NCBI GenBank assembly: GCA_026387915.1
Contig: JAPLKS010000018.1
Location: 124,001 to 188,000, forward strand
Reading direction: 5' to 3'
DNA from: Gemmatimonadota bacterium
GTDB lineage: Bacteria; Gemmatimonadota; Gemmatimonadetes; Gemmatimonadales; Gemmatimonadaceae
DNA length: 64,000 nt
The notes under the pieces are model-generated. The model ran no database searches, was not told the DNA's origin, and saw only the letters and a program-made list of their open reading frames with translations. This document shows, piece by piece, positions 37,172-54,519 of this stretch (its first letter is position 1; every line of letters begins with the position of its first letter). The position numbers and the translations under genes were made by a program.

Positions 37172-38028
37172 TGATCACCACAGCGGGAATCGACGTTGGG
37201 AGCGGCGCCGTGAAGGTGACCGTGATGCGCACGGACGGCGAGGGCTCCGAGCAGCTACTCGCGCAAGTGTCGACGCGCATTCGCCGGCGTGAGATTGCGA
37301 AAGTCGTCGACGAAACCTTTGATGCCGCGGTCGAGATGGCCGGCGTAGACGAGATCCACTACATCGGCACCACGGGCGAGGGTGGCGAAGTGCCGTATGC
37401 CACTGGGCATTTTTACGGCATGACCACGCACGCGCGTGGCGCGCTGTTTCTGACGCCAGGCATTGGCGCGGTACTCGATGTGGGTGCACTCCACACGCGT
37501 GCGGTGGCCATGGACGGTCACGGTCGCGTGAAGGACTACAAGATGACCAGCCAGTGCGCGTCGGGTTCCGGGCAGTTCCTCGAGAACATCGCGCGCTACC
37601 TTGGCGTGTCGCACGACGAAATCGGGCAGCTGTCGATTATTGCCACCAAGCCGGAGAAGGTGAGCTCGATCTGCGCCGTGCTCGCTGAAACCGACGTGAT
37701 CAATATGGTGTCGCGTGGCATTACGACCAGCGACATCCTGCGTGGCGTGCACGAGAGTATGGCCGAGCGCTTTGTGCGATTGCTGCGGTCGCTGGAGTTT
37801 GCGGGGGCGGTGTTTGTGAGTGGTGGACTCGCCTCGGACACGGGGTTGCTTACGGCGTTGCGCGATTCGTTGGCCAAGAAGGAAGCCGAGCTCGGAAAAC
37901 TCGAGGTTGTGACGCACGACGACGCGATTTTCGCTGGCTCCATCGGCGCGGCGCTGTGGGGTGCGTTCCGGTATCGGAAGATGTCGCAGCAGGACGTGGC
38001 GTGGACCGCCGCGTCGAAGGTGGCGTGA
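37171..38028 (+). CDS. bcrD: Benzoyl-CoA reductase ATPase subunit D
   Basis: A 285-residue partner ATPase of BcrA, with the length expected for BcrD. The N-terminal GIDVGSGAVKVTVM motif is present. The phosphate-2 loop reads LDVGALHTRAVAMD instead of DIGGQD, a substitution I also recall in known BcrD proteins. The bridging [4Fe-4S] ligands are Cys129 (SQCASGSGQFLENIARYLG) and Cys168 (SSICAVLAETDVIN). A gap of 63 bases without an obvious Shine-Dalgarno separates it from the molybdoenzyme genes, so this could be an internal operon boundary. Confidence 0.93.
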   Translation: MITTAGIDVGSGAVKVTVMRTDGEGSEQLLAQVSTRIRRREIAKVVDETFDAAVEMAGVDEIHYIGTTGEGGEVPYATGHFYGMTTHARGALFLTPGIGAVLDVGALHTRAVAMDGHGRVKDYKMTSQCASGSGQFLENIARYLGVSHDEIGQLSIIATKPEKVSSICAVLAETDVINMVSRGITTSDILRGVHESMAERFVRLLRSLEFAGAVFVSGGLASDTGLLTALRDSLAKKEAELGKLEVVTHDDAIFAGSIGAALWGAFRYRKMSQQDVAWTAASKVA

Positions 38029-38967: not shown

Positions 38968-41810
38968 GCACCGAAGTCCTCGTTCGTTTGAACATCAATG
39001 GTGAGGATCGTACCCTCGCCCTCAAACCGAACACCACGCTGCTCGCCGCGTTGCGGCAACACCTTGCTCTGACCGGCACCAAAAAGGGATGCGGCACGGG
39101 CGACTGTGGCGCGTGCACCGTACAGGTGGACGGCGATCCGGTAAACTCGTGCCTTATGCTGGCCGTCGCGGCGCAGGGAAAGCGCATTACGACCATCGAA
39201 GGACTGTCGCACGACGGTGAGTTGCACCCCCTGCAGCATGCGTTCGTCAAGCACGGGGCGATTCAGTGCGGCTATTGCACGAGCGGCGCGGTGATGGCAT
39301 CGAAGGCGCTCATCGACAGAAATCCGACGCCGACTGAGGGCGAGATCAAAGAGGCGCTCTCGGGCAACTTGTGCCGCTGCGCAACATACCCGCGCATGAT
39401 CAAAGCGGTGTCTGGGTGGAAAGAGTTCGAGGGCGTGCCCTTCAACTCCAAACCGCACGTGCACGCCGAACGCGACCAGGTGCGCGATCACGACACGGTG
39501 AGTCACGGCGTCACGCGCTACGACGGACCGGATAAAGTCACCGGGCGTGCGAAGTACACGGCAGACCTCAACCTCCCCGACACAATTGTCGGCAAGATTT
39601 TGGGCAGCACGGTGGCACACGGCATCATCAAGCGCATTGACGTGACCAAAGCACGCGCCTTGCCGGGCGTGCTGGCGGTGATCACCGGCGCCGATGTGCC
39701 AGACGCCTTCTACGGCGTGAGCCCCGCCCGCGAAGATGAACAGATTCTCGCCAAGGAGCGCGTGCGCTACGTTGGCGATGAAGTAGCTGCGGTGGCCGCG
39801 TTGGACGACGCGACCGCTGAAGCGGCGTTGAAGCTGATTGAAGTGGAGTACGAAGAACTGCCCGCGGTGTTCGATCCGGTGGCGGCGATGGCGCCCGGTG
39901 CGCCAGTGATCCATCCTGAGAAGCCGCGCTACGCCGGCAACATCAATACGCGCGTGGACTGGCACTTTGGCGACGTGCATAAGGGATTCGCCGAGGCGGA
40001 CCTCGTACGGGAAGAGCGATTTATTGGCAATCGTACGTACCAGTCGCCGATGGAGCCGCATGCGGCGCTGGCGCGCTGGGAGCATCACGGCGATCGTCTG
40101 ACCCTCTGGTCCTCCACACAAACGCCGCACTATCTGCACCGCTCGCTCTCGCGCGTGCTCGGCGTTCCCATGGGAAACATCCGTGTGATTCGCCCAGCAG
40201 TAGGAGGCGGATTCGGTGCCAAGGCAGAAGCGACGCCGCTCGATTTCTGCGCCGCGATCCTCTCCAAGATGACGGGACGTCCCGTCGCGATGGAATACAC
40301 GCGGGAAGAGATGTACACGCACTTCCGCGGCCGTCATAAGCAGTACATCGATCTCAAAATCGGCCTCAAGAAAGACGGCACGATTACGGCCGCTGAGCAT
40401 ACGGTGGTGCTGGATGGTGGCGCGTATACGTCATACGGCGTGATCACGGCGTACTACGCCGGATCGATGCTGCCGACGCTCTACAAGATTCCGAACTACA
40501 AGTATGAAGGCACGCGCGTGTACACAAACCTTCCGGCCTCCGGCGCGTTCCGTGGGCACGGGGTGCCACAGCCGCGCTTTGCCTTTGAATCATTGCTCGA
40601 CATGATGGCCGAAGAACTGGGCATCGATCCGTTTGATATTCGGCTCAAGAATGCCATGGAGCCGAACACGCGTACTGGCAACGCGCTCGACATTTCGTCG
40701 TGTGAGTTTATTGCCACGCTCAATCGTGCGCGCGAGACCTCGGGGTGGGCCGAGAAGCGCGGCAAGCTTCCGCCGGGCAAGGGGATTGGCGTCGGCTGCG
40801 GCGGCTTTGTGTCGGGCGCTGGATATCCGATTTACCGATCGGACTTCCCGCACTCGAATGCCATGATCCGCGTACACGAGGATGGCACCGGCGTCACGTT
40901 GCACATTGCGGCAGCGGAGATTGGCCAAGGCTCGGACACGGTGCTGGTGCAGATTGCCGCTGAGGAGCTTGGTGTACCGTACGAGTGGGTGTGGATGGCC
41001 GATTGCGACACCACGGTCAGCCCGCTCGATCTTGGCTCCTATTCGAGTCGCGTGACACTCATGGGCGGCAATGCCGTGAAGATGGCGGCCGCGAATGTGT
41101 CGGCGCAGCTCCGCGAAGTGGCGGCCCGAGAGTTGGGTTGCGACCCCACAGCGCTGACCGTGCGCGATGGCCGCATCTTTGTGCCGCAACATCCGTCCGT
41201 CGGAATGTCCTGGGCCGATGCCGCGCGCGCGGCATTCTCCAAGAAAGGCCCAGTTGTCGGTACTGGTTCATATTCGCCGCCCAAACATCTCGGTGGCGAG
41301 TTCAAGGGCGGCACGGTGGGCACGTCGCCGGCCTACAGCTTCTCGACCGCGGTGGCGGAAGTGACCGTGGATTTGGAAACAGGGTATGTGACCGTTGACC
41401 GCTTTACGGACTACAGCGATGCTGGAACCGTGATCAATCCGGTGACGCTGCACGGTCAGGTTGAGGGCGCGATCATCATGGGACTGGGTGAGACGTTGCT
41501 CGAGGACACGATCGTTGGCCCTGGCGGCAAATTTGCCAACGCCAATCTGCACGACTATCTGATTCCGACGATCGCCGAGACGCCGGAGATTCATACGGCG
41601 GCCGTGGAGAGTTTTGAGCCGCGTGGCCCGTTCGGCGCGAAGGAAATCGGTGAAGGCTCTATGCTTCCCGTGTTCGGCGCGATTGCCAACGCCATTTACA
41701 ACGCGTGCGGCGTGCGGGTCACGGAACTACCCATCACCCCAGAGAAGATTCTGCGCGGCATCAAGGCCAATGGTGGCGCGGCCGCCGTAGCGACCGGAGC
41801 GCGTGGATGA
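38964..41810 (+). CDS. Fused [2Fe-2S] and molybdopterin subunits of a 4-hydroxybenzoyl-CoA-reductase-like enzyme
   Basis: A 948-residue fusion. Residues 1-155 are a two-cluster iron-sulfur domain: plant-type ligands Cys43, Cys48, Cys51 and Cys63, then Cys102, Cys105, Cys137 and Cys139. From about residue 175 the molybdopterin domain begins (RYDGPDKVTGRAKYTADL), with VGGGFGAKAEAT, ASGAFRGHGVPQPRF, AAEIGQGSDTVLVQIAAEE and the catalytic Glu in RGPFGAKEIGEGSMLP near the C-terminus. In Thauera these are two separate genes (hcrC and hcrA); here they are one polypeptide. It overlaps the FAD subunit gene and the downstream tetR gene by 4 bases each. Confidence 0.9.
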   Translation: MSTEVLVRLNINGEDRTLALKPNTTLLAALRQHLALTGTKKGCGTGDCGACTVQVDGDPVNSCLMLAVAAQGKRITTIEGLSHDGELHPLQHAFVKHGAIQCGYCTSGAVMASKALIDRNPTPTEGEIKEALSGNLCRCATYPRMIKAVSGWKEFEGVPFNSKPHVHAERDQVRDHDTVSHGVTRYDGPDKVTGRAKYTADLNLPDTIVGKILGSTVAHGIIKRIDVTKARALPGVLAVITGADVPDAFYGVSPAREDEQILAKERVRYVGDEVAAVAALDDATAEAALKLIEVEYEELPAVFDPVAAMAPGAPVIHPEKPRYAGNINTRVDWHFGDVHKGFAEADLVREERFIGNRTYQSPMEPHAALARWEHHGDRLTLWSSTQTPHYLHRSLSRVLGVPMGNIRVIRPAVGGGFGAKAEATPLDFCAAILSKMTGRPVAMEYTREEMYTHFRGRHKQYIDLKIGLKKDGTITAAEHTVVLDGGAYTSYGVITAYYAGSMLPTLYKIPNYKYEGTRVYTNLPASGAFRGHGVPQPRFAFESLLDMMAEELGIDPFDIRLKNAMEPNTRTGNALDISSCEFIATLNRARETSGWAEKRGKLPPGKGIGVGCGGFVSGAGYPIYRSDFPHSNAMIRVHEDGTGVTLHIAAAEIGQGSDTVLVQIAAEELGVPYEWVWMADCDTTVSPLDLGSYSSRVTLMGGNAVKMAAANVSAQLREVAARELGCDPTALTVRDGRIFVPQHPSVGMSWADAARAAFSKKGPVVGTGSYSPPKHLGGEFKGGTVGTSPAYSFSTAVAEVTVDLETGYVTVDRFTDYSDAGTVINPVTLHGQVEGAIIMGLGETLLEDTIVGPGGKFANANLHDYLIPTIAETPEIHTAAVESFEPRGPFGAKEIGEGSMLPVFGAIANAIYNACGVRVTELPITPEKILRGIKANGGAAAVATGARG

Positions 41811-42460
41811 CGGCCATCAAGCGCGCGCGTACCGCGAAAGCTCCCGGGCCACGTCTGGCTCGGGAAAAAACGCAACGCAAGCTCGACGAACTGCTGATGA
41901 AGGCAGCCGCGCTGATCGCGAAGAAAGGATTCGAAGCCACGACCATGCGTGACCTCGCGAAGGCGATCGACGCGAGTCTGGCGGGGCTGTACCACTACTT
42001 CTCGAGCAAAGAAGACCTGCTGTATCAATTGCAACACCGGACGTTTTCGGCGCTGCTCGAGGCGCAGCAGGTCATCGCCGCCCTCCCTGGGACGCCCGAT
42101 GAGCGGTTTGCGCGGTTGCTGACGGGACACCTCGAGTTCTATGCGCAACACACGAATGAACTCAAGGCCTGCACCTTTGAACTCGAGTCGCTTTCAGTTG
42201 ACGATTACCGCACCGTCGAAGCGATTCGCCGGAAATACTATCGATTGATGACGTCCGTAGTCACTGATGTGATGCACGCGCGCAATGCGTCCGCGAAAGA
42301 AATGCGTCAAAGTCGTCACGCGACGCTGTTCATCTTCGGCATGCTCAACTGGATTTTCATGTGGTACGAGCCCTCCCGGCATGGAACGGTCTCGCAGATC
42401 GGCGACGAGATGCGCGATCTAGTCCTGCATGGATTGAAGCGCACGAAGGGAGGCAGGTAA
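41807..42460 (+). CDS. TetR family regulator of the aromatic island
   Basis: A 217-residue repressor from the ATG at 41807 that overlaps the molybdoenzyme stop. A basic N-terminal tail (TAIKRARTAKAPGPRLAREK) precedes the helix-turn-helix (LMKAAALIAKKGFEATTMRDLAKAIDASLAGLYHYFSSKEDLLYQL, about 30-75). The C-terminal domain resembles TetR_C regulators of fatty-acid or aromatic acyl-CoA genes. The palindrome TCGAACG-tc-CGTTCGA in the divergent control region at 33343 is the likely operator and an acyl-CoA intermediate the likely inducer; both are inferences from position. Confidence 0.9.
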   Translation: MTAIKRARTAKAPGPRLAREKTQRKLDELLMKAAALIAKKGFEATTMRDLAKAIDASLAGLYHYFSSKEDLLYQLQHRTFSALLEAQQVIAALPGTPDERFARLLTGHLEFYAQHTNELKACTFELESLSVDDYRTVEAIRRKYYRLMTSVVTDVMHARNASAKEMRQSRHATLFIFGMLNWIFMWYEPSRHGTVSQIGDEMRDLVLHGLKRTKGGR

Positions 42461-42506: not shown

Positions 42507-43736
42507 ATGACGAGGGGAACGACCGTGCAGTTCAACGATGTGTTCATTCCATATGGCGCATATTGGTCGACGCCATTCTGCTCGTGGCAGGGAAGTTTGG
42601 CAACGCTCCCGCCGATTCCGTTCGCCGCAGAAGTCACCGCGCGGGCGCTCGCGCAGCGGGATATCGAGGCCGCAACGATTGACGGCCTCTGCCTCGGCAT
42701 TACCGTGGCGAGCAAGTTCTCGTTCTATGGCACGCCGTGGTTCGCTGGATTAGCTGGTCTCGGGCACACGACGGGCCCCACGATCAGTCAGGCGTGCGCC
42801 ACGTCGGTGCGCTGCCTTGCGACGGCTGCACAAGAGCTGAGCACCGGTGGCGCAACGGTGTACCTTGCCGCCGCGGCCGACCGCACGAGCAATGGGCCGC
42901 ACGTTTTCTATCCAAACCCCGCTGGTCCTGGCGGGACGGGCGACGCTGAGAATCTCGTCCTCGACAGCTTTGGCCACGATCCGTGGGCCAAGAACTCGAT
43001 GTTGCAGACCGCGGAGAACGTCGCCAAGGAAGCTGGCATTACGCGCGAGCAGCAGGAGGAGATCACGCTCCTGCGCTATGCGCAGTATGCCACCGCTACC
43101 GCTGATGACAGTGCATTCCTCAAGCGCTACATGCCGTGGCCGCTCGAAGTAAAAGATGCCCGTGGCAAGAAGGTCGTCGCGACGGTGACCGGCGATGAAG
43201 GCGTCCATGGCACCTCCGCGCAGGGCCTTGCTGGATTGCGCCCTGTGATCGAAGGCGGATCGGTGACCTTCGGAACGCAAACGCATCCCGCCGACGGCAA
43301 TGCCGGTATGGTGCTCACCGCTGGCCGCGATCGCGCCCGTGCGATCGCACCGGCTGGATTGGTGGATGTGCAGCTCCTCTCGGTTGGCCAAGCGCGCGTG
43401 AAGAAGGGGTTCATGCCAATGGCCGTCGTACCGGCAGCAGCGCAGGCACTTGAACGGGCGGGCATCACGGCTGCCCAACTCGGCAGCGTGACGTCGCACA
43501 ATCCGTTCGCGGTCAACGATGTGTATCTCTCGCGCGAACTCAAGCTCGACCCCGAGCGGATGAACCGACATGGCTGTTCGCTCGTGTGGGGGCACCCGCA
43601 GGGACCCACGGGGCTTCGCTCGGTTATCGAGCTCATCGAAGATCTCGCGATTGCCGGCGGTGGGTATGGACTGTTCACTGGCTGTGCCGCAGGCGACAGC
43701 GCCGCCGCGGTGGTATTGAAAGTCAGCATGCGCTGA
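42507..43736 (+). CDS. Thiolase family protein (acyl-CoA acetyltransferase)
   Basis: A 409-residue thiolase. The acyl-carrying Cys is Cys97 in TISQACATSVRCLA. SVTSHNPFAVNDVYLS and HGCSLVWGHPQGPTGLRSVIEL supply the usual Asn/His elements, and GGGYGLFTGCAAGDSAAAVV near the end supplies the second Cys. AGGA precedes the ATG at 42507; a GTG at 42524 is out of frame. Within the pathway it is the best candidate for cleaving 3-oxopimelyl-CoA into glutaryl-CoA and acetyl-CoA (inference). The sequence is divergent from standard FadA, so another substrate is possible. Confidence 0.85.
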   Translation: MTRGTTVQFNDVFIPYGAYWSTPFCSWQGSLATLPPIPFAAEVTARALAQRDIEAATIDGLCLGITVASKFSFYGTPWFAGLAGLGHTTGPTISQACATSVRCLATAAQELSTGGATVYLAAAADRTSNGPHVFYPNPAGPGGTGDAENLVLDSFGHDPWAKNSMLQTAENVAKEAGITREQQEEITLLRYAQYATATADDSAFLKRYMPWPLEVKDARGKKVVATVTGDEGVHGTSAQGLAGLRPVIEGGSVTFGTQTHPADGNAGMVLTAGRDRARAIAPAGLVDVQLLSVGQARVKKGFMPMAVVPAAAQALERAGITAAQLGSVTSHNPFAVNDVYLSRELKLDPERMNRHGCSLVWGHPQGPTGLRSVIELIEDLAIAGGGYGLFTGCAAGDSAAAVVLKVSMR

Positions 43737-43765
43737 ACACATGGAATGACGAGAGGGCACCAGCC

Positions 43766-44725
43766 ATGAATTATTTCGCCTCCAAAGAGGCTTCCAGCTT
43801 CGGATTTAAAGACATCCTGTATGAGAAGAAGGACTGGGTGGGGCGTATTACGATCAATCGCCCCGAGTCCTTCAACTGCTACACGACGTCCACCTTGCAA
43901 GAACTGATCACGGCCATCGACGACGCGTCGAATGACGACAACGTAGGTGTGATTGTGCTGACGGGCGCGGGCGACAAGGCGTTCTGCACCGGTGGCGATG
44001 TGAAGGAGTATGCGGGTACCTACACGCAGAGCCCGCACGACTACTTCAAGTACATGGGACTGTTTGCCAAGTACATCGAAAGCATTCTGCGCAGTGGCAA
44101 GGTTACCATCGCGCGCCTCAATGGCATCGCGGTGGGCGGCGGCAACGAAACACAGCTCGCCTGCGACCTTGCGGTGATGGCCGATGATACCTACCTCGGC
44201 CAGGTTGGCACGAGCGTCGGGAGCGTCGCGTGTGGCGGCGCCACGCAGTGGCTGTCGATTCACGTTGGCGACCGGCGCGCGCGCGAAATGCTCTTCCTCA
44301 ATCCTCGCATTCTGGCCGCGAAAGCCTTGGAGTGGGGGTTGGTGAATCGCGTGGTGCCGCGCGCCCAGCTCGACGAAGAAGTGAACTCGCTGGTGAAACA
44401 GCTCCTCGAGAAATTCCCGGAGTGCACCCGTTACACCAAGCAGCAGGTGAACTACTGGAAGGAAGCTTCGTGGCACGCGACCGTCGGTCATGCGCGCGAC
44501 TGGCTCTCCACGCACTTCACGACGCTTGAGCCGTACGAAGGGATGCAGGCGTTTGTGGAGAAGCGGAAAATCGACTTTATGGGTCTCCGCCAAAAAGCCG
44601 CTGACGAAAATGCGAGCAGCGAATTCCTCTGGGGGCCGTACAGCCAGACCTGTGGTGGTTGTGGCGCCAAGGGCATCCCCAAGCAGTTCACCTTCTGTGG
44701 CGGCTGCGGCGCCAAGTTGGGATGA
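43766..44725 (+). CDS. oah: 6-oxocyclohex-1-ene-1-carbonyl-CoA hydrolase-like protein with C-terminal zinc ribbon
   Basis: A 319-residue crotonase-fold protein. It matches the ring-opening hydrolase BamA/Oah by eye: NRPESFNCYTTSTLQEL, TGAGDKAFCTGGDVKEYAGTY (about 66-86), a GGGNETQLACDLAV oxyanion segment, GSVACGGATQWLSIHVG, and a C-terminal LLEKFPECTRYTKQQ plus IDFMGLRQKAAD. It is about 55 residues shorter than Thauera Oah because an internal segment is missing, and the middle part also recalls BadI/MenB. An extra zinc ribbon closes the protein: Cys296, Cys299, Cys311 and Cys314. It is coupled to the next SDR gene by an ATGA overlap. The exact substrate is an inference. Confidence 0.78.
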   Translation: MNYFASKEASSFGFKDILYEKKDWVGRITINRPESFNCYTTSTLQELITAIDDASNDDNVGVIVLTGAGDKAFCTGGDVKEYAGTYTQSPHDYFKYMGLFAKYIESILRSGKVTIARLNGIAVGGGNETQLACDLAVMADDTYLGQVGTSVGSVACGGATQWLSIHVGDRRAREMLFLNPRILAAKALEWGLVNRVVPRAQLDEEVNSLVKQLLEKFPECTRYTKQQVNYWKEASWHATVGHARDWLSTHFTTLEPYEGMQAFVEKRKIDFMGLRQKAADENASSEFLWGPYSQTCGGCGAKGIPKQFTFCGGCGAKLG

Positions 44726-45483
44726 CCATGGCGATGAAACGCGATCTCGCGGGGCAGGCGACCCTCGTGACCGGAGGCGGCCGCGGCATTGGTGCGGCCA
44801 TCGCTCGGGAACTAGCGCAGCAGGGAAGCGATGTGGCGCTAGTGGATCTGGGTGCGTTTGACGACGCCGAGCGGGTCGCGGCGGAGTTGCGCGCGATGGG
44901 TCGCAAGGCCGTGGCGTTGAAAGCGGATGTGTCGGATTTCGCGGCCGCCGAAGCGGCGGTCGCGGCGGCCGTCGTAGCGCTTGGAAAGCTCGACGGGATT
45001 GTGTGTAACGCCGGCATTACGCGTGACGGCGTGTCGTGGAAAATGACCGAAGCCGCATGGGACGCCGTGCTCGACGTGAACCTGAAAGGGTGCTTTGCAT
45101 ATTGCCGAGCTGCGGCGCCGCTCTTTCGCGCACAGAAGGGCGGACGCATTGTCACGATCGCCTCGATCAACGGCATGCGTGGAAAGTTTGGACAATCGAA
45201 CTACGCCGCGTCGAAGGCCGGTGTGATTGGCCTCACCAAGACGTTGGCGCGCGAACTTGGGCCCAGTGGCGTGAACGTGAACTGCGTGGCGCCTGGCTTT
45301 ATTCGCACCGAAATGACTGACATCGTGCCACCCGCCGTCATTGAGCGCGCCTCTGCGGAGTCGGCGCTTGGTCGGCTCGGTGAACCCGACGAGGTGGCAG
45401 CGGTCGTGGCGTTCCTGCTGTCCGACCGCGCGCGCTACATCACGGGCGAGGTCATCAAAGTTGATGGCGGCCAGTACACCTAA
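44722..45483 (+). CDS. SDR family 3-hydroxyacyl-CoA dehydrogenase (FabG/BadH-like)
   Basis: A 253-residue short-chain dehydrogenase with TGGGRGIGAAIA (NAD(P) binding, about 18-29), NAG in CNAGITRDG, the catalytic Ser in IASINGMRG, Tyr-x3-Lys in SNYAASKAG, and VAPGFIRTEM. Three closely spaced ATGs are possible starts; the first (44722) overlaps the previous stop and is used. BadH of the Rhodopseudomonas pathway, which oxidises 2-hydroxycyclohexanecarboxyl-CoA, is an SDR of this size, so the enzyme could act on a cyclic hydroxyacyl-CoA or on 3-hydroxypimelyl-CoA. Sequence alone does not decide between them. Confidence 0.85.
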   Translation: MTMAMKRDLAGQATLVTGGGRGIGAAIARELAQQGSDVALVDLGAFDDAERVAAELRAMGRKAVALKADVSDFAAAEAAVAAAVVALGKLDGIVCNAGITRDGVSWKMTEAAWDAVLDVNLKGCFAYCRAAAPLFRAQKGGRIVTIASINGMRGKFGQSNYAASKAGVIGLTKTLARELGPSGVNVNCVAPGFIRTEMTDIVPPAVIERASAESALGRLGEPDEVAAVVAFLLSDRARYITGEVIKVDGGQYT

Positions 45484-45493
45484 GGGGAAGGCA

Positions 45494-46273
45494 ATGACCG
45501 AAACAGTGGCTCCACAGGCGGTGCGGTACGAGGTGCGCGACGACGTCGCGTTCCTCACGCTTGACGTACCGCCCGTGAATGTGCTGCGATCGGCGACGAT
45601 GCATGAACTCGCTGAGGCGGTAGAGCGCGCGCAAGCCGACCGATCGCTGAAGGCCGTGGTGCTGGAGTCGGCAGCTCGCGCGTTTTCGGCGGGCGCGGAT
45701 GTTGGTGATCACCGGCCGGAGGAAGCGCCGGGGATGATTGCTGGGTTCAGTCGCTTGTTTGCGGCGTTCGGCGCGCTCGAGTTGCCGATGGTGATGGCCG
45801 TCGACGGAGCGGCACTGGGTGCCGGTTTTGAACTAGTGATGATGGCGGATGTGCTCTTGGCGACGGAGCGTTCGACCTTTGGGCAGCCGGAGATTCGGCT
45901 CGGTTTCTTTGCGCCGGTGGGTGTGGCCTGGCTTCCGGCGCGCATTGGAGTGGCGAGGGCCATTGAGGTGACGTCTACTGGCCGCACGTATTCCGCAGCA
46001 GAGATGCATACGATGGGCTTGGTGTCGCGCGTGGTGGCTGATGGCGGGCTGGCAGAGGCGCTGGCGCAGGTGCTCGGCGACCTGCGGCGCGCGAGTCCGT
46101 TGGTGCTGCGAATGAACGTGCGGCTTGCGAAGTCGTTAAACGGACGTCCGTTCGAAGAAGCCCGCCTCGAGGCGGAGCGCGTGTTTCTGAACGAGTTGAT
46201 GGCCACCGAAGACGTGCGCGAGGGGATCGCGTCGTTCTTCGAGAAGCGGCGGCCCGCATGGAAGAACCGGTAA
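45494..46273 (+). CDS. dch: Cyclohexa-1,5-dienecarbonyl-CoA hydratase-like protein
   Basis: A 259-residue crotonase-fold enzyme. The pattern SAGADVGDHRPEEAPGMIAGF followed by LFAAFGALELPMVMAVDGAALGAGFELVMMAD and STFGQPEIRLGFFAPVGVAWLPARIG resembles Dch/BamR, whose members share a V-x-x-H-x-P stretch and G-Q-P-E-I-x-L-G-x-F-A-P. That enzyme adds water to the dienoyl-CoA product of benzoyl-CoA reductase to give 6-hydroxycyclohex-1-ene-1-carbonyl-CoA. It lies 10 bases after the SDR gene, with GGGGAAGG upstream as ribosome-binding site. Confidence 0.82.
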   Translation: MTETVAPQAVRYEVRDDVAFLTLDVPPVNVLRSATMHELAEAVERAQADRSLKAVVLESAARAFSAGADVGDHRPEEAPGMIAGFSRLFAAFGALELPMVMAVDGAALGAGFELVMMADVLLATERSTFGQPEIRLGFFAPVGVAWLPARIGVARAIEVTSTGRTYSAAEMHTMGLVSRVVADGGLAEALAQVLGDLRRASPLVLRMNVRLAKSLNGRPFEEARLEAERVFLNELMATEDVREGIASFFEKRRPAWKNR

Positions 46274-46304: not shown

Positions 46305-48605
46305 ATGCGGATCCTGATCGTCGGGGCCGGGGCGCTGGGCGGGCTCGTGGGCGCGTATCTCTCGCGCTCGGGCGAGGACGTAACGTTGCTCGAGGTAAAT
46401 CAGGCGCGTGCGCGACTGCTTGCCGACGCCGGATTGCACATCACGCGGGTCGGGCAAGATGAGACGACCATTCCGATTCACGTCGTGACATCGGTGGTGG
46501 GGCTCGCGCCGTTCGACCTCGTGTTCGTGGCCACCAAGACGTACCAAACGCAAGACGCCGTGCGTGCGGCCCTCGCCGCGACGACGCCCGCGACCCTGTT
46601 CTTTTCGCTGCAGAATGGCATCGGCAACGCCGAAGCCATTGCTGAGATCGTGGGCGCGTCGCGCGTGCTGTGTGGCGTGACGTATCACAGTATCGAGCAT
46701 TCGGGGCCTGGGCGGCTACGTTACCGCGCTGGGATCAAGCCCATTCAGATCTCCGCCGTGGAAGGCGGGGCCACGCCGGAAGTTGAGGCGATTGCCGTCG
46801 CGTTCCGGAAGGCCGGGTTCGAGACCAACGTGGTGCCGAACGTCGATCACGCGCTCTGGCAGAAACTGTTGCACAACGCTGTCGTCAATCCGACGTCCGC
46901 AATCACCGGGCTCACCTGTCGCGAGTTGCTCGCCGACGAGCATCTGATGGGCTTCATGCGCGACCTGTGCAACGAGATTGTGACGGTGATGCGCGCGCGC
47001 GGCGTGCCGATCATGGACGAAGAAGATCCCTTCCGTCCCGTGACCGGATCGCTCAAAGCCCTCGGCAAGAATCGGCCGTCGATGTGGCAAGATCTCGCGC
47101 GCGGTACCCGCACGGAAATCGACGCGCTGAACGGCGCGATTGTGCGTGAAGCCGAACGCCTTGGGCTTTCCGTGCCACACAACTCCGCGCTCGTGCGGTT
47201 CATCCACTCCCGCGAGCGGCAAAAGTTCCTGCGCAAGCAGGAGATTGTGCAGCATCTCGGGCTCGACCGCACACGCGCGGCAGAGGAAGAAGCGCCGCGC
47301 CCACGTTTGCGTGCCGTGCCGGGCGTGCCGGTGCGTGCTGCGCCGCGGGACGCCGATGCGGGAATGCCGCCCGGTGGACCGCCGCTGGAAAGCACGCGGC
47401 GGCTCAAGGAGTTGATGCACACGTACTATCTGGATCTCGCGGCGGCGTCGGATGATTCGAATCGCATCGTCGCGGCGGTGTCGGGGCTCGGGCCGGTGGA
47501 ACTGCTGCGCGCGATGGATATTGTGCCGTACTTCCCGGAAAACCATGCGGCGCTCATTGCGGCCTCACGGCGCGCCGGCCCGTACATCGCGCGCGCGACC
47601 GCCGACGGTTTCTCACAGTTCGTCAGTTCCGCGATGCGCACTGATATTGGCGCCCTCCTCACGGGCACCACCCCGCTCACCGACGCGCATGGTATTGCCG
47701 GTGTTCCGCGTCCGGATATCGTCACGTATAGCACGAACACCGGCCACGAGTTGGTACGCTGGTTTGAGTTCTATGGATCGCACTATGGCGTGCCGGTGAT
47801 GGGTGTGCATCCGCCGCCAGCACTCGACGTGCTCGAACAAATCGACGTCGATGCGGCCGTGCACCAGTTGCTCCGGCTGCAGCGGCGCCTCGAAGAGGCC
47901 AGTGGTCGGTCGCTCAACATGGACCGGCTCGGCGAGGTGGTGGGGTACTCGGCGCAGGCAGCGGAGCTGTGGGGGGACATCCTCGCGCTCGCGCGCCACA
48001 CGCCGGCACCGATCACCTTCTTCGATACACTGATTCACATTGCGCCCATGATCCTGCTGCGCGGCACGCCGGAGGCGGTGGACTACTACCGGCAGCTCAA
48101 GGCAGAAATTGAAGAGCGCGTGGACCAAGGTGTCTCGGCCGTGCCGAATGAGTCACACCGTCTCTATTGGGACGGACCGCCCATTTGGTGTGCGTTGCGC
48201 CCCTTGGCCCGACTATTCGAAGAAGCGGGTGCGGCGATCGTGGCCTCGACGTTCTGTTCTGAATTTGCGTTGACCGGTCTCGACCCCTGCGATCCGCTCG
48301 AAAGTATGGCGCGTGCGTACACCGGCATCTTCGACAATCGGTCGGAAGATTTCCGCGCGGCGTACCTCGCTCAACAGTTCGAACAGTTTTCCGTGGATGC
48401 GGCGGTCTACCATGACTGCCGCACGACGCCCGAGACGAGCCACGTGCGGTACGGGCCGTCGTCACGCACGGAGCATCTCGCGCAGGTGCCGGGGTTGGTC
48501 ATTGAAGCCGATTCACACGACCTGCGGCTGTTCTCAACCGAACGCCTGCAGGAACAGTTCGCCGATTTCCTCGAGCATCGCGCCGAGCGGATTGGTGCTC
48601 GATGA
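46305..48605 (+). CDS. Ketopantoate reductase fused to a degenerate 2-hydroxyacyl-CoA dehydratase/BCR-type subunit
   Basis: A 766-residue fusion; the ATG at 46305 lies 7 bases after AGGAGG. Residues 1-310 form a full PanE/ApbA domain: GAGALGG at 7-13, Lys78 (ATKTYQ), Asn104 (LQNGIG), Lys187 and Asn191/Asn195 (WQKLLHNAVVNP) and Glu271 (RTEIDALNG), so reductase catalysis looks possible. A Pro/Arg-rich linker (about 325-362) leads to an HgdB-like domain (362-766) clearly paralogous to the protein at 49430. In that domain two of the three cluster cysteines are replaced, by Ser441 and Gly480; only Cys705 remains. I know of no described protein with this architecture. The substrate is unknown. Confidence 0.85.
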   Translation: MRILIVGAGALGGLVGAYLSRSGEDVTLLEVNQARARLLADAGLHITRVGQDETTIPIHVVTSVVGLAPFDLVFVATKTYQTQDAVRAALAATTPATLFFSLQNGIGNAEAIAEIVGASRVLCGVTYHSIEHSGPGRLRYRAGIKPIQISAVEGGATPEVEAIAVAFRKAGFETNVVPNVDHALWQKLLHNAVVNPTSAITGLTCRELLADEHLMGFMRDLCNEIVTVMRARGVPIMDEEDPFRPVTGSLKALGKNRPSMWQDLARGTRTEIDALNGAIVREAERLGLSVPHNSALVRFIHSRERQKFLRKQEIVQHLGLDRTRAAEEEAPRPRLRAVPGVPVRAAPRDADAGMPPGGPPLESTRRLKELMHTYYLDLAAASDDSNRIVAAVSGLGPVELLRAMDIVPYFPENHAALIAASRRAGPYIARATADGFSQFVSSAMRTDIGALLTGTTPLTDAHGIAGVPRPDIVTYSTNTGHELVRWFEFYGSHYGVPVMGVHPPPALDVLEQIDVDAAVHQLLRLQRRLEEASGRSLNMDRLGEVVGYSAQAAELWGDILALARHTPAPITFFDTLIHIAPMILLRGTPEAVDYYRQLKAEIEERVDQGVSAVPNESHRLYWDGPPIWCALRPLARLFEEAGAAIVASTFCSEFALTGLDPCDPLESMARAYTGIFDNRSEDFRAAYLAQQFEQFSVDAAVYHDCRTTPETSHVRYGPSSRTEHLAQVPGLVIEADSHDLRLFSTERLQEQFADFLEHRAERIGAR

Positions 48606-48632: not shown

Positions 48633-49430
48633 ATGGCTGAAAAAGAACTGCGAATAGCCGCCGGCATAGATGTCGGCACGGAATGCGTGAAGGCAATCAT
48701 CGCGGCGGAGGACGGCCGAGTGATTGGCCGTTCGGTACTCGCGACTCGCGGCTACTTTCAGGCCTGCGTGTACGAGGCACTCGCGGCCGCACTTGATGAT
48801 GCGCAGCGCAAGGAAGAAGAACTCACCGGCATTGGCGCCACCGGTTTCGGTATGGACTGTGTGCCCAAAGCCACGGTTACGATCACCGAAGCATCGTCGC
48901 ACGCCTTTGGGGCCTTTCAGCACATTGGTCATGCTATGACGCTCGTGAACATTGGCGGACGTGATCCGCACGTGATTTCGGTGGACGCCGAAGGCCGTCG
49001 CACCGCCGCGCGCGGAGCGCGTCGCTGTGCGGTTGGAATAGGCAGTTTCCTGATGTTCGCCGCCCGGCATCTCGACGTCAGCCCCACGAGGCTCCAGGAG
49101 TTGGCGTCCGCTGCGGGCGACCGGCCGGCGCGCGTGAGCAGCTACTGCTCTGTGTATTCCGCGTCGGAGGTACTCGAACGACTGCGCGAAGGCGCCACGC
49201 GTGAAGAAATCGCGCTGGGATGCATGCACTCCATTGCCGAGCGGATTGTCGAGATTGGGGGCTTTGACGCGCCCGTGGTAGTCTGCGGTGGCGTAGTGGA
49301 GTACTTCCCTGGAGTGCTCACGGCACTCGAAGCGAAAACTGGCTTGAGCGTCCAAGCAGTTCCCGATGCGATCTTTACCGCTGCGCTCGGAGCGTCGCTG
49401 AGCGTCTTCCAGCAAGCGCAGGAGAGTTAA
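48633..49430 (+). CDS. Activase-type ATPase with altered phosphate loop (BcrD/HgdC-like, second set)
   Basis: A 265-residue BadF/BadG/BcrA/BcrD-family ATPase, preceded by GGAGGA. AAGIDVGTECVKAII opens the fold. The cluster cysteines are kept as Cys132 (RRCAVGIGSFLMF) and Cys172 (SSYCSVYSASEV). The phosphate-2 loop, normally D-I-G-G-Q-D, reads N106-I-G-G-R-D111, and the usual TGFGR reads TGFGM. Like BcrD it may be the regulatory or weakly active partner of a heterodimer with the canonical ATPase at 50683. Its stop overlaps the next start (TAATG). Confidence 0.85.
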   Translation: MAEKELRIAAGIDVGTECVKAIIAAEDGRVIGRSVLATRGYFQACVYEALAAALDDAQRKEEELTGIGATGFGMDCVPKATVTITEASSHAFGAFQHIGHAMTLVNIGGRDPHVISVDAEGRRTAARGARRCAVGIGSFLMFAARHLDVSPTRLQELASAAGDRPARVSSYCSVYSASEVLERLREGATREEIALGCMHSIAERIVEIGGFDAPVVVCGGVVEYFPGVLTALEAKTGLSVQAVPDAIFTAALGASLSVFQQAQES

Positions 49431-50683
49431 TGGCGGAAGCACGCACGGAACTACGGAGCACGGCGGCGCTACGCGACACGATGAGTGCCTACTACAAGAA
49501 GCTCGGCGACGCGGTCACGCACAAATCGGCGCCGGTGGCGTGGTGCACGAGCGTTGGACCGGCGGAGTTGCTGCGCGCGCTTGGGTTTGCCGTGCACTTT
49601 CCCGAAAATCACGCCGCAATGCTCGGTGCGGGACGCACGGCGAATAAGTACCTCCCCGTGGCACACGCACAAGGCTACTCGCAGGATATCTGTTCGTATC
49701 TCACGAGCGATGTGGGCGCGTATCTCGCCGGCGAGTCGCCGCTCGCAGCATTTGGCCTCTCCGGTGTGCCGCGTGCGGACGTGCTCGTGTTCAATACCAA
49801 TCAGTGCCGCGACGTGCGCGACTGGTTTGAGTGGTATGGCCGCCAGTGGAACGCACCGGTGGTAGGCGTCAACTCGCCGCGCTCTGTTGGAGATGTGACC
49901 GACGCAGAAGTCGACGACGTCACAGCGCAGCTCGAAGCGCTCGTCCCCGTGCTGGAGTCGGTGGCCGGTGTTCGGCTCGATGGGGGGCGTCTTGCCGCCG
50001 CGATGAAGGCCGCGCGCGAAGCGTCCGAGCTCTGGGAACGCTGCCTACAAACCGCAGCGAACAAGCCGTCCCCGTTCACGTTCTTCGATGGCACCATCCA
50101 TATGGGGCCGGCGGTAGTACTCCGCGGTGCTCCAGAGGCAGCGGCCTACTACCACGTGTTGCTCGCGGAGCTCGAGGAGCGCGTACGCGGCGGCGTGCAG
50201 TCGGTGCCCGGCGAAGCGCTGCGGCTGTACTGGGATGGCATGCCGGTGTGGGGACGGCTTCGTGCGCTCTCCACGACATTCGCTGAGTTCCACACAGCGG
50301 TGGTCGCGTCTACCTACTGCAATAGCTGGATCTTCTCGATGCTCGACCCTGCCGATCCTTGGCGCTCGATGGCGCGCGCATCGGTGGAGTTGTTCATCGC
50401 GCGCTCCGATGGCCCGAAGGAGCGCTACATAGAACGCATGGTGGAGCTGTACGGCGTGGACGGCATCGTCTTTCACGACTGCCGAACCTGCCCCAATAAC
50501 ACGAACACGCGCTACGGCATGCCACGTCGGTTGTCCGAAAAACTTGGCATCCCCACACTCGTACTCGACGGCGACGTCAACGACTTGCGCTGTTTCTCCG
50601 ACGAGCAAGCGCGTACGAACATCGAAGGCTTTGTGGAGCAACTCGCGGACGCGCGCACCCACGCTAGCCGAGCGACGAGATAA
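49430..50683 (+). CDS. 2-hydroxyacyl-CoA dehydratase/BCR-type subunit with intact cluster ligands (second set)
   Basis: A 417-residue HgdB-like subunit. The expected [4Fe-4S] ligands are present: Cys88 (QDICSYLTSD), Cys126 (NTNQCRDV) and Cys351 (FHDCRTCPNN). Further cysteines at 39, 297, 354 and 388 sit in conserved blocks. The FPENHAAMLGAGR and LYWDGMPVW segments are typical of the dehydratase family. It is paralogous along its whole length to the C-terminal half of the fusion at 46305, so the two probably form the alpha-beta module of one enzyme. It is closer to 2-hydroxyacyl-CoA dehydratases than to BcrB by eye. Both junctions with its neighbours are TAATG. Confidence 0.87.
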   Translation: MAEARTELRSTAALRDTMSAYYKKLGDAVTHKSAPVAWCTSVGPAELLRALGFAVHFPENHAAMLGAGRTANKYLPVAHAQGYSQDICSYLTSDVGAYLAGESPLAAFGLSGVPRADVLVFNTNQCRDVRDWFEWYGRQWNAPVVGVNSPRSVGDVTDAEVDDVTAQLEALVPVLESVAGVRLDGGRLAAAMKAAREASELWERCLQTAANKPSPFTFFDGTIHMGPAVVLRGAPEAAAYYHVLLAELEERVRGGVQSVPGEALRLYWDGMPVWGRLRALSTTFAEFHTAVVASTYCNSWIFSMLDPADPWRSMARASVELFIARSDGPKERYIERMVELYGVDGIVFHDCRTCPNNTNTRYGMPRRLSEKLGIPTLVLDGDVNDLRCFSDEQARTNIEGFVEQLADARTHASRATR

Positions 50684-51525
50684 TGGCGCGCTTTGCCGGC
50701 GTGGACAGCGGGTCGTGGAACACGAAAGCCGTGGTCATTGACGACGCGGGCCACGTGCTCGGCACCAGCGTGGTGCGCTCCGGCGCCGATCTTACCGTGG
50801 CGGCGGAGCGGGCCTATGCCGAAGCGCTCGCGGTCGCTGGCTGTTCGGCGGCTGATGTGTCTGCGGTGTGGTCTACGGGCTTCGGGCGTAATGCCGTGCC
50901 ATTTGCGAATGGATCGCGCACAGAACTGGACTGCCATGGCCGTGGCGCGGCGTTTCATGTGCAGGGACCACTGGTGGTGATCGACATTGGCGGACAAGAT
51001 GCCAAGGTGATTCGGATTGATGCGAATGGGCAGCGGCTTTCGCATCGGATGAATCGCAAGTGCGCCGCAGGCACGGGAAGCTTTCTCGACGAAATCGCCC
51101 TCCGGCTCGGCATCGACACAGCCGCGTTGGACCCGCTGGCAGCGGGCGCCACAGAAGAGTTGGAGCTCTCGAGTTTCTGCACGGTGTTTGCTGGCACGGA
51201 GCTGCTCACACTCATTCGATCGGGCCGACGTCCCGCCGACTTGGCGATGGCGGCGTACCGATCGCTGATGAAGCGCGTCATCGCGATGGATGTGTTTGAG
51301 GGGCGCGTTGTGGCGACCGGCGGCGTCGTCGCGCATCACCCTACCATGGTGACGCTACTCTCAGAGGCGACGGGGACCGAAGTGATCGTGCCACCACATC
51401 CGCAGGAAATGGGCGCCTTTGGCGCGGCGCTCGCGGCTCGTGACGGCGCGGTGTCGGTGGGGCCAGGCAGTGTGCCGGCTGCACCTCGCACAACGACGCC
51501 GACGGAAGGTGACGATGCCGACTGA
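50683..51525 (+). CDS. Activase-type ATPase, canonical (BcrA/HgdC-like, second set)
   Basis: A 280-residue activator ATPase with the full family signature: AGVDSGSWNTKAVVID at 5-20, STGFGRNAVPFANG, VIDIGGQDAKVIRID at 99-113, the cluster Cys127 in RKCAAGTGSFLDEIALRLG and Cys166 in SSFCTVFAGTELL. Unlike BcrA it lacks the large insertion and is of normal activase length, with a Pro/Thr-rich tail. With the ATPase at 48633 it would form a heterodimer that energises electrons for the second set. The next gene starts 11 bases before its end. Confidence 0.9.
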   Translation: MARFAGVDSGSWNTKAVVIDDAGHVLGTSVVRSGADLTVAAERAYAEALAVAGCSAADVSAVWSTGFGRNAVPFANGSRTELDCHGRGAAFHVQGPLVVIDIGGQDAKVIRIDANGQRLSHRMNRKCAAGTGSFLDEIALRLGIDTAALDPLAAGATEELELSSFCTVFAGTELLTLIRSGRRPADLAMAAYRSLMKRVIAMDVFEGRVVATGGVVAHHPTMVTLLSEATGTEVIVPPHPQEMGAFGAALAARDGAVSVGPGSVPAAPRTTTPTEGDDAD

Positions 51526-53437
51526 CCACACGGACGGCGCACCGGGCGCCATGAAGCACGCACTCGCCGCCATTCGCGAGGGTGATATCATCCGCTCCCA
51601 ACTGGAGCCGGTGGGAGTGCCCGAAAGTATTGGCGGGTTGCTCTCGCGTAACGTAGCGCGCTTTGGCAATCACGCGGTGTTCAGCGAACTGCGCGATGGT
51701 GAATACCGCGCGGTGTCGTGGACTGATTTTGCGCGAAACGTGGCGTCGTTCGGTTCGTTCCTTGCGTCGGCGGGCGTCGGCCCGGGCACACGGGTGGCGA
51801 TGGTGTCGCCCAACCGCGGCGAGATGCTCGTCGCAGAGTTTGCCACCATGGGACTGGGTGCGACTTACGCGCCCATCTTCTCCGCCTATCCTGCTGAACA
51901 AGTGCAAGGATTGCTTGGCCAGTTGCAACCCGTCGTCGTCATTGTCGCTGGCCGCGATCAGATGGCCGGCGTCACGCTCGGCGCAGCGGCGCGCGCCCTG
52001 GTGTCGTTCGACGCGGTAGACGCGACCGTGGTGGAGGGGATCGTCAAGGGATCGACGGCCAGTTACACCACGTTCGCCGACGCCCTCGCCGCTGGGGCCA
52101 GCGATACGGTGCGGTGCGCCGCCTTTGCGGCGAGCGCGACGCGCGTCGATCCGAACGAGCCGTGCCTGCTCAACTTCACTTCAGGAACGAGCGGCCTGCT
52201 CAAGGGCGTGCTACTCACCCACGACAACATCCTGTCGCAGCAACGTGCGCTCTCGGCGATCTGGTCGGTGACTCATAACGACCGGTTCCTGTCGTATCTG
52301 CCTTGGCATCACAGCTTCGGTGGAATCTTTGAGAAGTACTCTGCGCTGTTCAACGGCGCGACCATTCACATTGACACCTCGCGCGGCAAAGACTTTGAAG
52401 TGCTGCGCCGTAACTGGGCTGCGGTTCGACCGACGATCTACTTCAGTGTGCCGCAGGTATATCAGCAATTGGTGGCGCACGTGCAGTCGCGTCCGGAAGA
52501 CGAAGGCAGCATCTTTCACGCTGGCCTGCGCTTTGTCTTCACCGCGGCCGCCCCGTTGCCGGCAAATGTATCGGCGTACTTCGCCTCCAAAGGCGTGGCA
52601 GTCCTTGAGGGCTGGGGCCTCACCGAGACGTCCCCGTGCTGCACGCTCACCGATCTCGCGCAGCCGCGGACCGTGCCAGGAATGGTGGGATATCCGATTC
52701 CTGGCGTGACTATTCGCATTGCCGAGGATGGCGAGATATTGGTGCGCGGCCCCAATGTGATGCGTGGCTATTTCGGAAACCCCGAGGCCACCGCGCAGGC
52801 GCTTCCGGGCGATGGCTGGTTCCACACCGGCGATCTCGGGGAGTTTGTGGGCGCGGGATTGAAGCTTGTGGCGCGCAAAGATCGTGTCTTCAAGATGTTG
52901 AACGCCGAAAAAGTTGTCCCCACCGAAATCGAAAACCGTTTGGCGGGGATGAACAACTACATCCGCCATGTCATCGTCGCGGGGCAGGGGGAGCGATTCC
53001 TCGCTGCCCTAATATTCCCCGACTACTTCCGAATCTCAGAGCAGTTCGGCGATGACCGTGAGGCGGCGGAGCGCGTGGTCAAGGAATCGTTGCGCACGAC
53101 GCTCCTCGCGTTCAACGATGATCATCCGGTGAGGTACGAGCGGATTCAGGCCTTTGCCGTGATCAGCAAGGAGCTCTCCATTGAGAATGAGGAGCTCACT
53201 CCGTCAATGAAAGTGCGGGTGCGGAATGTGCTCTCGCACGCCGAGGAATATCTGGAAGCAGTGTATGCGCCGAGCGCGGACTGTGACTGCCGGTTCTTGC
53301 GGAAGGTGATGCGCTTGAAGCCGGACGATCGCGCTTGCTTTGCTGGGATTGAACGTTCGCTCGACCAATGCCATTCCTGTGGGAGTTTCGTGTTTGGCGA
53401 TGCTCCCGATGCAGAACCCACTCAATTGAGCCATTGA
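51515..53437 (+). CDS. AMP-dependent acyl-CoA ligase with Cys-rich C-terminal tail
   Basis: A 640-residue adenylate-forming ligase of the long-chain (FAA1-like) size class, from the ATG at 51515. Motifs: LNFTSGTSGLLKGVLLTHDN (P-loop, with Leu replacing the usual Pro before Lys-Gly), YLPWHHSFGG, VLEGWGLTETSPCC, and GWFHTGDLGEF...RKDRVFKMLNAEKVVPTEIEN. A tail of about 50 residues after the ligase domain carries Cys590, Cys592, Cys608, Cys619 and Cys622, ending with QCHSCGSFVFG, possibly a metal site. In context it may activate benzoate, 4-hydroxybenzoate or another acid; its size differs from the roughly 520-residue benzoate-CoA ligases. Confidence 0.87.
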   Translation: MPTDHTDGAPGAMKHALAAIREGDIIRSQLEPVGVPESIGGLLSRNVARFGNHAVFSELRDGEYRAVSWTDFARNVASFGSFLASAGVGPGTRVAMVSPNRGEMLVAEFATMGLGATYAPIFSAYPAEQVQGLLGQLQPVVVIVAGRDQMAGVTLGAAARALVSFDAVDATVVEGIVKGSTASYTTFADALAAGASDTVRCAAFAASATRVDPNEPCLLNFTSGTSGLLKGVLLTHDNILSQQRALSAIWSVTHNDRFLSYLPWHHSFGGIFEKYSALFNGATIHIDTSRGKDFEVLRRNWAAVRPTIYFSVPQVYQQLVAHVQSRPEDEGSIFHAGLRFVFTAAAPLPANVSAYFASKGVAVLEGWGLTETSPCCTLTDLAQPRTVPGMVGYPIPGVTIRIAEDGEILVRGPNVMRGYFGNPEATAQALPGDGWFHTGDLGEFVGAGLKLVARKDRVFKMLNAEKVVPTEIENRLAGMNNYIRHVIVAGQGERFLAALIFPDYFRISEQFGDDREAAERVVKESLRTTLLAFNDDHPVRYERIQAFAVISKELSIENEELTPSMKVRVRNVLSHAEEYLEAVYAPSADCDCRFLRKVMRLKPDDRACFAGIERSLDQCHSCGSFVFGDAPDAEPTQLSH

Positions 53438-53439
53438 CG

Positions 53440-54519
53440 ATGACGACCCGACGCGACGGAATGTGGGATGCGTGGATGATGACGGCGCCTGGCGCGCCCT
53501 TTGAGCACCGGTCATTAGTGCCTCGTCCTCCTGCTGCGGGCGAAGCGACCGTGGAGGTGTCTGGCTGCGGCGTGTGTCACACCGATGTCTCGTTCTTGCA
53601 TCACGGCGTCAAAACACGCGGCGCGCTTCCACTCGTGTTGGGTCACGAGATTAGCGGTGTGGTACGCGAAGTCGGCGAGGGAGTAGATGTCGCGCTGATC
53701 GGCCGAGCCGTGGTGGTGCCAGCCGTTCTCCCCTGCGGTGAATGTGATTTGTGCCGCGCCGGTCACCGCACGATTTGCCGGCGTCAGGTGATGCCAGGCA
53801 ACGACGGCAATGGCGGCTTTGCCTCGCACGTTGTGGTGCCGGCGCGCTTTCTCTGCCCTGTTCCGGCAGCGGCGCTGGCCACGCATGACCTATGGGAACT
53901 GAGCGTGGTGTCGGACGCGGTCGCTACGCCGTTCGAAGCGGTCAAGCGATCGGGGCTCGCCTCAGGCGAAGCCGCACTGATCGTTGGCATTGGTGGCATC
54001 GGTGTGTACGGCGTACAGATCGCGGCGGCGACGGGCGCCAAGGTGATCGCTCTCGATGTTGATGATCGCAAGCTTGCCCAGGCGCGAGAGGCAGGAGCGG
54101 GGGCGGTGCTCAATGTGCGCGACATGGCTACCAAAGACGTGCGCAAACAAGTGCGCTCGCTCGCCGAGTCGCTCGGTGCGCCAGCACACTTATGGAAGAT
54201 TTTTGAAATGTCAGGCACGCGCGCCGGCCAGGAGACGGCCTATTCGCTGCTCGGCTTTGGCGCGTCGCTCGCCGTGGTTGGGTTTACCATGGACCGGGTC
54301 GAGGTGAGTCTCTCGAACCTCATGGCCTATGACGCCACCGTGCGCGGTAACTGGGGCGCCGATCCGCTCATCTATCCTGAACTGCTGCAGTGGATTGGCG
54401 AGGGGCGGGTGACGGTGAAGCCGTACATTGAGCGCCATCCGTTGGATCGCATCAACGAAGTGTTCGACGACGCGCACCACGGGCGGCTCACGAAACGCGT
54501 GGTGCTCGTTCCGGGCTGA
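53440..54519 (+). CDS. had: 6-hydroxycyclohex-1-ene-1-carbonyl-CoA dehydrogenase
   Basis: A 359-residue zinc-dependent alcohol dehydrogenase. The start MTTRRDGMWDAWMMTAPGAPFEH and the blocks VSGCGVCHTDVSFLHHGVKTR, LPLVLGHEISG, PCGECDLCRAGHRTICRRQVMPGNDGNGGFASHVVVPA correspond closely to Had of the benzoyl-CoA pathway as I recall it, which oxidises the Dch product to 6-oxocyclohex-1-ene-1-carbonyl-CoA. Catalytic Zn ligands are in GVCHTD and GHE; the structural Zn cysteines are in CGECDLC and the following C. NAD binding is GIGGIGVYG. It is the last gene of the train, 2 bases after the ligase, and a hairpin follows. Confidence 0.92.
   Translation: MTTRRDGMWDAWMMTAPGAPFEHRSLVPRPPAAGEATVEVSGCGVCHTDVSFLHHGVKTRGALPLVLGHEISGVVREVGEGVDVALIGRAVVVPAVLPCGECDLCRAGHRTICRRQVMPGNDGNGGFASHVVVPARFLCPVPAAALATHDLWELSVVSDAVATPFEAVKRSGLASGEAALIVGIGGIGVYGVQIAAATGAKVIALDVDDRKLAQAREAGAGAVLNVRDMATKDVRKQVRSLAESLGAPAHLWKIFEMSGTRAGQETAYSLLGFGASLAVVGFTMDRVEVSLSNLMAYDATVRGNWGADPLIYPELLQWIGEGRVTVKPYIERHPLDRINEVFDDAHHGRLTKRVVLVPG

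Follow-up and report, generated by a model that had tools for sequence, protein, structure and literature searches.

The window analysed here, 64,000 nucleotides of contig JAPLKS010000018.1 from a Gemmatimonadota bacterium, contains a benzoyl-CoA degradation locus in which all genes from canonical bcrCBAD through had lie on one strand. Within it, a single gene joins a ketopantoate reductase (PanE/ApbA) domain to an HGD-D subunit of the BCR/HAD family. The HGD-D half of the fused protein is called p below and the protein encoded at 49430..50683 is called q. The features of the locus are as follows.

31200..33287, - strand: 3-hydroxyacyl-CoA dehydrogenase/enoyl-CoA hydratase, FadB-like (Pfam 3HCDH_N and ECH_1)
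33445..38028, + strand: canonical bcrC, bcrB, bcrA, bcrD (TIGR02263, TIGR02260 and TIGR02261 above cut-off; TIGR02259 575.3 against 578)
38092..38967, + strand: FAD subunit of the molybdoenzyme at 38964..41810 (Pfam FAD_binding_5; TIGR03195 112 bits, under cut-off)
38964..41810, + strand: 4-hydroxybenzoyl-CoA-reductase-like molybdoenzyme, gamma and alpha fused (TIGR03194 941 bits, cut-off 994.55)
41705..42460, + strand: TetR regulator (Pfam TetR_N)
42507..43736, + strand: thiolase (Pfam Thiolase_N/C)
43763..44725, + strand: BadI/Oah-like crotonase with C-terminal zinc-ribbon-like CxxC motifs (Pfam ECH_1; TIGR03210 and TIGR03200 under cut-offs)
44734..45483, + strand: SDR of 3-hydroxyacyl-CoA dehydrogenase type (Pfam/NCBIfam)
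45488..46273, + strand: enoyl-CoA hydratase, Dch-like or cinnamoyl-CoA hydratase (Pfam ECH_1; TIGR03189 under cut-off)
46305..47228, + strand: PanE/ApbA-type NAD(P)H-dependent 2-oxoacid reductase domain, residues 1-308 of the fused protein (Pfam, TIGR00745)
47238..47354, + strand: linker, residues 312-350, predicted disordered (pLDDT <50; variable in alignment)
47385..48587, + strand: HGD-D subunit p, residues 361-761, alpha-type fold, without cluster ligands (Pfam HGD-D)
48633..49430, + strand: activase Q, electron-feeding ATPase (TIGR00241 141 bits, above cut-off)
49430..50683, + strand: HGD-D subunit q, cluster-bearing partner (Pfam HGD-D; Cys88, Cys126, Cys354)
50683..51525, + strand: activase A (TIGR00241 194 bits, above cut-off)
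51515..53437, + strand: AMP-forming acyl-CoA ligase, start approximate (Pfam AMP-binding)
53368..54519, + strand: Had, 6-hydroxycyclohex-1-ene-1-carbonyl-CoA dehydrogenase, the genome's only one (TIGR03201 432.9 bits, above cut-off)

No aminotransferase was identified at the locus in the window, a point against the arylpyruvate route proposed below. The FAD subunit has no strong match to HcrB, so that the reaction of the molybdoenzyme is uncertain; its fused gamma and alpha subunits and XdhB-type FAD subunit differ from the separate HcrC, HcrA and HcrB of a Myxococcota locus (L055). The CxxC crotonase type is seen at the PanE locus in genomes that lack a canonical Oah (the window's, G077 and G078) and is a candidate stand-in for that ring-opening enzyme. 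The genes at 33445-38028 place a canonical bcr-type benzoyl-CoA reductase in Gemmatimonadota, while several genomes of the same genus have no related HGD-D match. The flanks (25453-29159 and 56402-57733) encode peptidases (DPP IV, M20) and an Xaa-Pro dipeptidase-like amidohydrolase, consistent with the use of amino acids.

The fused gene, 46305-48605, is a single uninterrupted frame of 766 residues, with an ATG at 46305, a stop at 48605 and steady coding GC. Pfam places ApbA at residues 3-152, ApbA_C at 179-303 and HGD-D at 397-757, all above their cut-offs, and TIGR00745 (apbA_panE) scores 255.6 bits against a cut-off of 141.35, which assigns the N-terminal half to the PanE/ApbA family. In the AlphaFold model two well-predicted domains (mean pLDDT 84) are separated by the disordered linker. 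An earlier note, made from the DNA alone, had described just such a fusion and had aligned its C-terminal half end to end with the 49430 protein; both observations stand, residues 361-761 being 42% identical to q over 401 residues (E 5e-107).

The occurrence of the fusion elsewhere was assessed in a homologue scan with one genome per species. The 44 loci found all belong to metagenome-assembled or uncultured records and are spread over Gemmatimonadota, Acidobacteriota, Krumholzibacteriota, Eisenbacteria and Myxococcota. The ApbA/PanE and HGD-D combination recurs at about 40 loci, in at least five phyla, the closest record being 96% identical in the fused protein. So many independent loci exclude chance, and with it the misassembly or frameshift that the note had named as the finding that would undo its claim. 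Pseudogene decay is likewise ruled out by 51-96% identity across phyla and many invariant residues. One genome (G009) has two copies of the fused gene (at L007 and L033), 87% and 64% identical to the window's. No plasmid record contained a region covering 80% of the fusion.

Wherever the contig extends beyond PanE, PanE and p are fused, except in three Myxococcota genomes. Here a standalone PanE lies directly before had, and q and activase A are present, but neither p nor activase Q was found anywhere in the three genomes. The joint absence suggests that p and activase Q were gained or lost as a pair. At some other loci PanE-p-activase Q and q-activase A form two separate blocks, as would be expected from the duplication of a unit of subunit plus activase. 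As to whether the unfused state is ancestral or results from loss, the PanE tree has very long outgroup branches and misplaces E. coli PanE; the HGD tree favours loss of p, since q of the unfused genomes falls inside the q clade, although the long stem branch of p tempers this.

The difference between p and q is clearest at the cluster ligands. In BzdO three cysteines, Cys95, Cys128 and Cys380, ligate the catalytic [4Fe-4S]-OH2 cluster, with Glu65 beside the water, while in its partner BzdN six cysteines bind an [8Fe-9S] cluster (PMC11971306). Cys88, Cys126 and Cys354 of q align with the three BzdO ligands and Glu59 with the cluster-side glutamate; all four residues are present in 39/39 q homologues without exception, the three cysteines being those of an alpha-type subunit of the BCR/HAD family. 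The facing positions in p are Ser441, Gly480 and Thr708, so that a second subunit with a cluster of its own, as elsewhere in BCR/HAD, is not seen here. None of 39 p homologues has the complete cysteine set, the others showing Asn, Ala, Ser and so on at these positions, although 38 retain the glutamate. The six-cysteine set of BzdN type, which marks the partner subunit of class I BCR, is also absent from p. Thus the alternative that the earlier note had set against itself, many homologues with separate domains and intact cysteines, is not what the homologues look like: PanE is unfused in three genomes only, and those have no p.

The same note had listed these replacements correctly, and had added that Cys705 stays. 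It does so in the window, but in only 11 of 36 homologues, and its counterpart Cys351 is not among the three ligands of q. The asymmetric pair with one cluster that the note put forward is plausible given ligand loss in p and retention in q; the pairing of p and q as a heterodimer is itself our inference from sequence, and p may act as a scaffold or as a pseudo-enzyme that binds CoA. Both activases keep the two cysteines of the bridging [4Fe-4S] cluster (Cys132 and Cys172 of Q in 34/34 homologues, Cys127 and Cys166 of A in 38/38).

Scores against family models place both subunits within BCR/HAD and outside its named members. HGD-D (PF06050) gives 171.7 bits for p and 206.9 for q (cut-off 28.4), but the BcrB equivalog TIGR02260 gives only 128.8 and 129.7 (cut-off 486.55), the HadB equivalog NF052455 143.7 and 191.6 (cut-off 750), and the equivalog NF040772 of the double-cubane cluster protein DCCP 46.7 and 44.3 (cut-off 350). 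HadB is the best sequence match of q. The tree, with 37 rows for p and 34 for q, makes the two sister clades (support 99/99), separate from HadB, MbdO/BcrB and BcrC; no robust node links q to HadB, and this fork is open. Both p and q are of the alpha (HadB/BzdO) type and descend from one alpha-type subunit.

Pocket and fold point towards a dehydratase. Trp38, Ser41, Asn60 and Val129 of q are common to HadB, whereas BcrB and MbdO differ and BzdO has the Trp alone; the earlier note's dehydratase-like partner thus gains from a pocket that is mostly unlike those of benzoyl-CoA reductase subunits. The q model matches HadB with Z 48.9, BzdO with Z 47.1 and MbdO with Z 41.7, and the p model matches 3o3m_A with Z 48.9. 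His131 of BzdO was considered as a marker of ring reductases and dropped, BcrB and MbdO having Phe at that position. For the [8Fe-9S] cluster of BzdN a capacity of at least two electrons has been proposed (PMC11971306), so that a p without cluster would fit a one-electron dehydratase better. One-electron dehydration of a 2-hydroxyacyl-CoA is therefore favoured, with the points from pocket, score and fold being indicative rather than conclusive.

The reductase half retains its catalytic residues. Lys78, Asn104, Lys187, Asn191 and Glu271, picked out in the earlier note, correspond in the alignment to Lys72, Asn98, Lys176, Asn180 and Glu256 of E. coli PanE. The catalytic residues are found in 43-44 of 44 homologues, the remainder being gaps; Lys187, Glu271, Asn104, Asn191 and Asn195, the catalytic Lys/Glu pair and substrate asparagines of the E. 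coli enzyme, are present in all 44. By contrast, Glu30 occupies the place of E. coli Arg31 at the end of beta-2, the residue that binds the 2'-phosphate of NADPH. This makes NADH the likelier cofactor. The domain model matches D-mandelate dehydrogenase and KPR folds with Z 31-36, the best being tied between D-mandelate dehydrogenase (5x20, Z 36.4) and an archaeal KPR (Z 36.3). PanE-type D-2-hydroxyacid dehydrogenases yield (R)-2-hydroxy acids, which after activation are substrates of HAD dehydratases.

Where a locus extends far enough, the p and q genes have a CoA ligase beside them and beta-oxidation genes near; three distant kinds of acid-CoA ligase occupy this one slot. At one locus (L044:14536-20174) the q operon includes an NDP-forming acyl-CoA synthetase and a sodium/solute symporter, with fadB divergent; similar gene families, unlabelled, recur at L038, L045 and L104. 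At a Myxococcota locus (L053:4751-6367) an indolepyruvate ferredoxin oxidoreductase alpha-like gene lies beside fadB/thiolase and the PanE module, and was not found at the other loci compared with it.

Our preferred reading, to which we would give an even chance, sees the fused protein as one chain of a BCR/HAD-family 2-hydroxyacyl-CoA dehydratase, ATP-activated and with the reductase for the preceding step built in, in an arylpyruvate route to (4-hydroxy)benzoyl-CoA. The PanE domain, with NADH, would reduce a 2-oxo acid, most likely an arylpyruvate (4-hydroxyphenylpyruvate or phenylpyruvate), to the (R)-2-hydroxy acid, which the neighbouring ligase would convert to its CoA ester. A heterodimer energised by the two activases, in which q would hold the catalytic [4Fe-4S]-OH2 cluster and p would be a cluster-less structural part and tether of the reductase, would then remove water by a one-electron radical route to give a cinnamoyl-type CoA. 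Hydratase, dehydrogenase and thiolase would take this to (4-hydroxy)benzoyl-CoA, and the molybdoenzyme and BcrCBAD would lead it into the ring pathway. Substrate, order of reactions and physiological direction are proposed; with an HCR-like enzyme and beta-oxidation genes adjacent, the sequence arylpyruvate, aryl-lactate, cinnamoyl-CoA, (4-hydroxy)benzoyl-CoA is the simplest reading. A route from phenylpyruvate through cinnamoyl-CoA to benzoyl-CoA was proposed hypothetically in a 2026 paper on benzene degradation (PMC13416013). The reduction of a 2-oxo to a 2-hydroxy acid followed by radical dehydration, suggested in the earlier note, is adopted here as the best explanation; the note had missed the benzoyl-CoA setting, with its bcrCBAD and had. 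More broadly, its domains and ligand loss hold, and to them are now added that context, two separate activases, a shared alpha-type ancestry and the likelier NADH.

The main rival, which we think unlikely, takes p-q to be another ATP-dependent ring reductase, acting on a substituted benzoyl-CoA (e.g. hydroxybenzoyl-CoA), with PanE reducing the resulting cyclic ketone. The locus does adjoin bcrCBAD and had, its two activase genes recall BcrA and BcrD, the fold of q is matched almost as well by BzdO as by HadB (Z 47.1 against 48.9), and the unfused PanE stands directly before had. However, 19/19 genomes have just one Had, which accordingly serves the ring pathway; the adjacency is then no proof that PanE acts on the ring, and that argument is weakened. 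Against a ring reductase, too, are the want of a cluster in p, where the characterised BzdNO uses [8Fe-9S], the HadB-like pocket of q and its 130 bits to TIGR02260 (cut-off 486.55). Furthermore, the module is apart from the ring genes in Myxococcota of the L055 kind, where canonical bcrC, dch, oah and had are on the other strand and FadB and thiolase adjoin the module, with HcrC/A/B following it.

The dehydratase mechanism could be retained with a non-aromatic or other substrate, such as a branched-chain, indole-type or 2-hydroxy-dicarboxylic acyl-CoA; proximity to the benzoyl-CoA genes would then reflect co-localised anaerobic catabolism. HadB, the closest family, acts on 2-hydroxyisocaproyl-CoA, and D-2-hydroxyacid dehydrogenases of the PanE family are broad. 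We nevertheless rate this as rather improbable in view of the company that the module keeps: a BcrB-like gene is present in 10/10 relatives with the fusion and, among 18 further carriers of the PanE gene, there is exactly one Had in all 18, a canonical Oah above cut-off in 15 and an HCR-like alpha subunit in 16. The module therefore lives in genomes with the benzoyl-CoA pathway. A point against our preferred reading is that a strong HcrA match is missing from two of the three genomes whose PanE is unfused. Finally, the PanE domain might serve pantothenate synthesis, p being idle and the fusion without meaning for any pathway, and the window's genome does have no other convincing PanE. This we consider very improbable: several genomes of the same genus have no PanE-like match at all, which indicates that the genus is independent of PanE, the fusion is present also in relatives that have other PanE-like genes, pan genes were not identified at the loci and Glu30 replaces the NADPH-binding Arg.

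The open-access literature searched for a PanE/HGD-D fusion contained no description of one, and a search on 3-hydroxybenzoyl-CoA and hbd returned nothing. We propose tentatively, and with the balance somewhat against it, that the locus represents a new anaerobic route from aromatic 2-oxo acids (tyrosine and phenylalanine skeletons) to benzoyl-CoA, by way of a PanE fused to a one-cluster alpha/alpha-prime dehydratase with paired activases, in five phyla. If true, this would show a BCR/HAD enzyme at work with one cluster only, its partner being a pseudo-enzyme. A published attempt to obtain BzdNO with one cluster did not succeed, the variant proteins being unstable (PMC11971306); an apparently natural and widely conserved version would make the role of the second cluster in BCR/HAD directly testable. 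The arylpyruvate reading also points to an undescribed way into anaerobic benzoyl-CoA degradation, in lineages for which metagenomes are almost the sole source of knowledge, and its predicted substrates are open to checking.

Among known systems, the PanE/ApbA family, including D-mandelate and other D-2-hydroxyacid dehydrogenases (PDB 5x20, 3wfi), shares the fold and the catalytic Lys/Asn/Glu of the reductase half, but here the domain is fused to an HGD-D subunit and has an acidic residue at the end of beta-2 in place of the NADPH Arg of E. coli KPR. FldABC, the phenyllactyl-CoA dehydratase of Clostridium sporogenes, resembles the module in proposed reaction and radical mechanism; it works in a reductive route with a CoA transferase, whereas a ligase and beta-oxidation to benzoyl-CoA are proposed here. 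HAD activators are normally encoded by one gene and BCR activators by two, and the two activase genes of the module thus speak against the dehydratase reading. Class I BCR (BcrCBAD, BzdNOPQ, MbdONPQ) has, like the present module, two catalytic and two ATPase genes per operon in a benzoyl-CoA degradation locus, and the catalytic [4Fe-4S] ligands of q are those of BzdO, but p has neither a double-cubane nor any other cluster, the q pocket is mostly unlike BcrB and MbdO, and a canonical BcrCBAD is already encoded upstream. With HadBC/HadI (PDB 3o3m), q shares the HadB fold, the three cysteines, the glutamate and the pocket residues, p has the same alpha-type fold, and the activators are ATPases. 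That system differs in that its partner is a beta-type HadC with its own cluster, whereas the module has two activase genes, scores far under the HadB equivalog cut-off and two alpha-type halves, one of them the cluster-less paralogue p fused to PanE.
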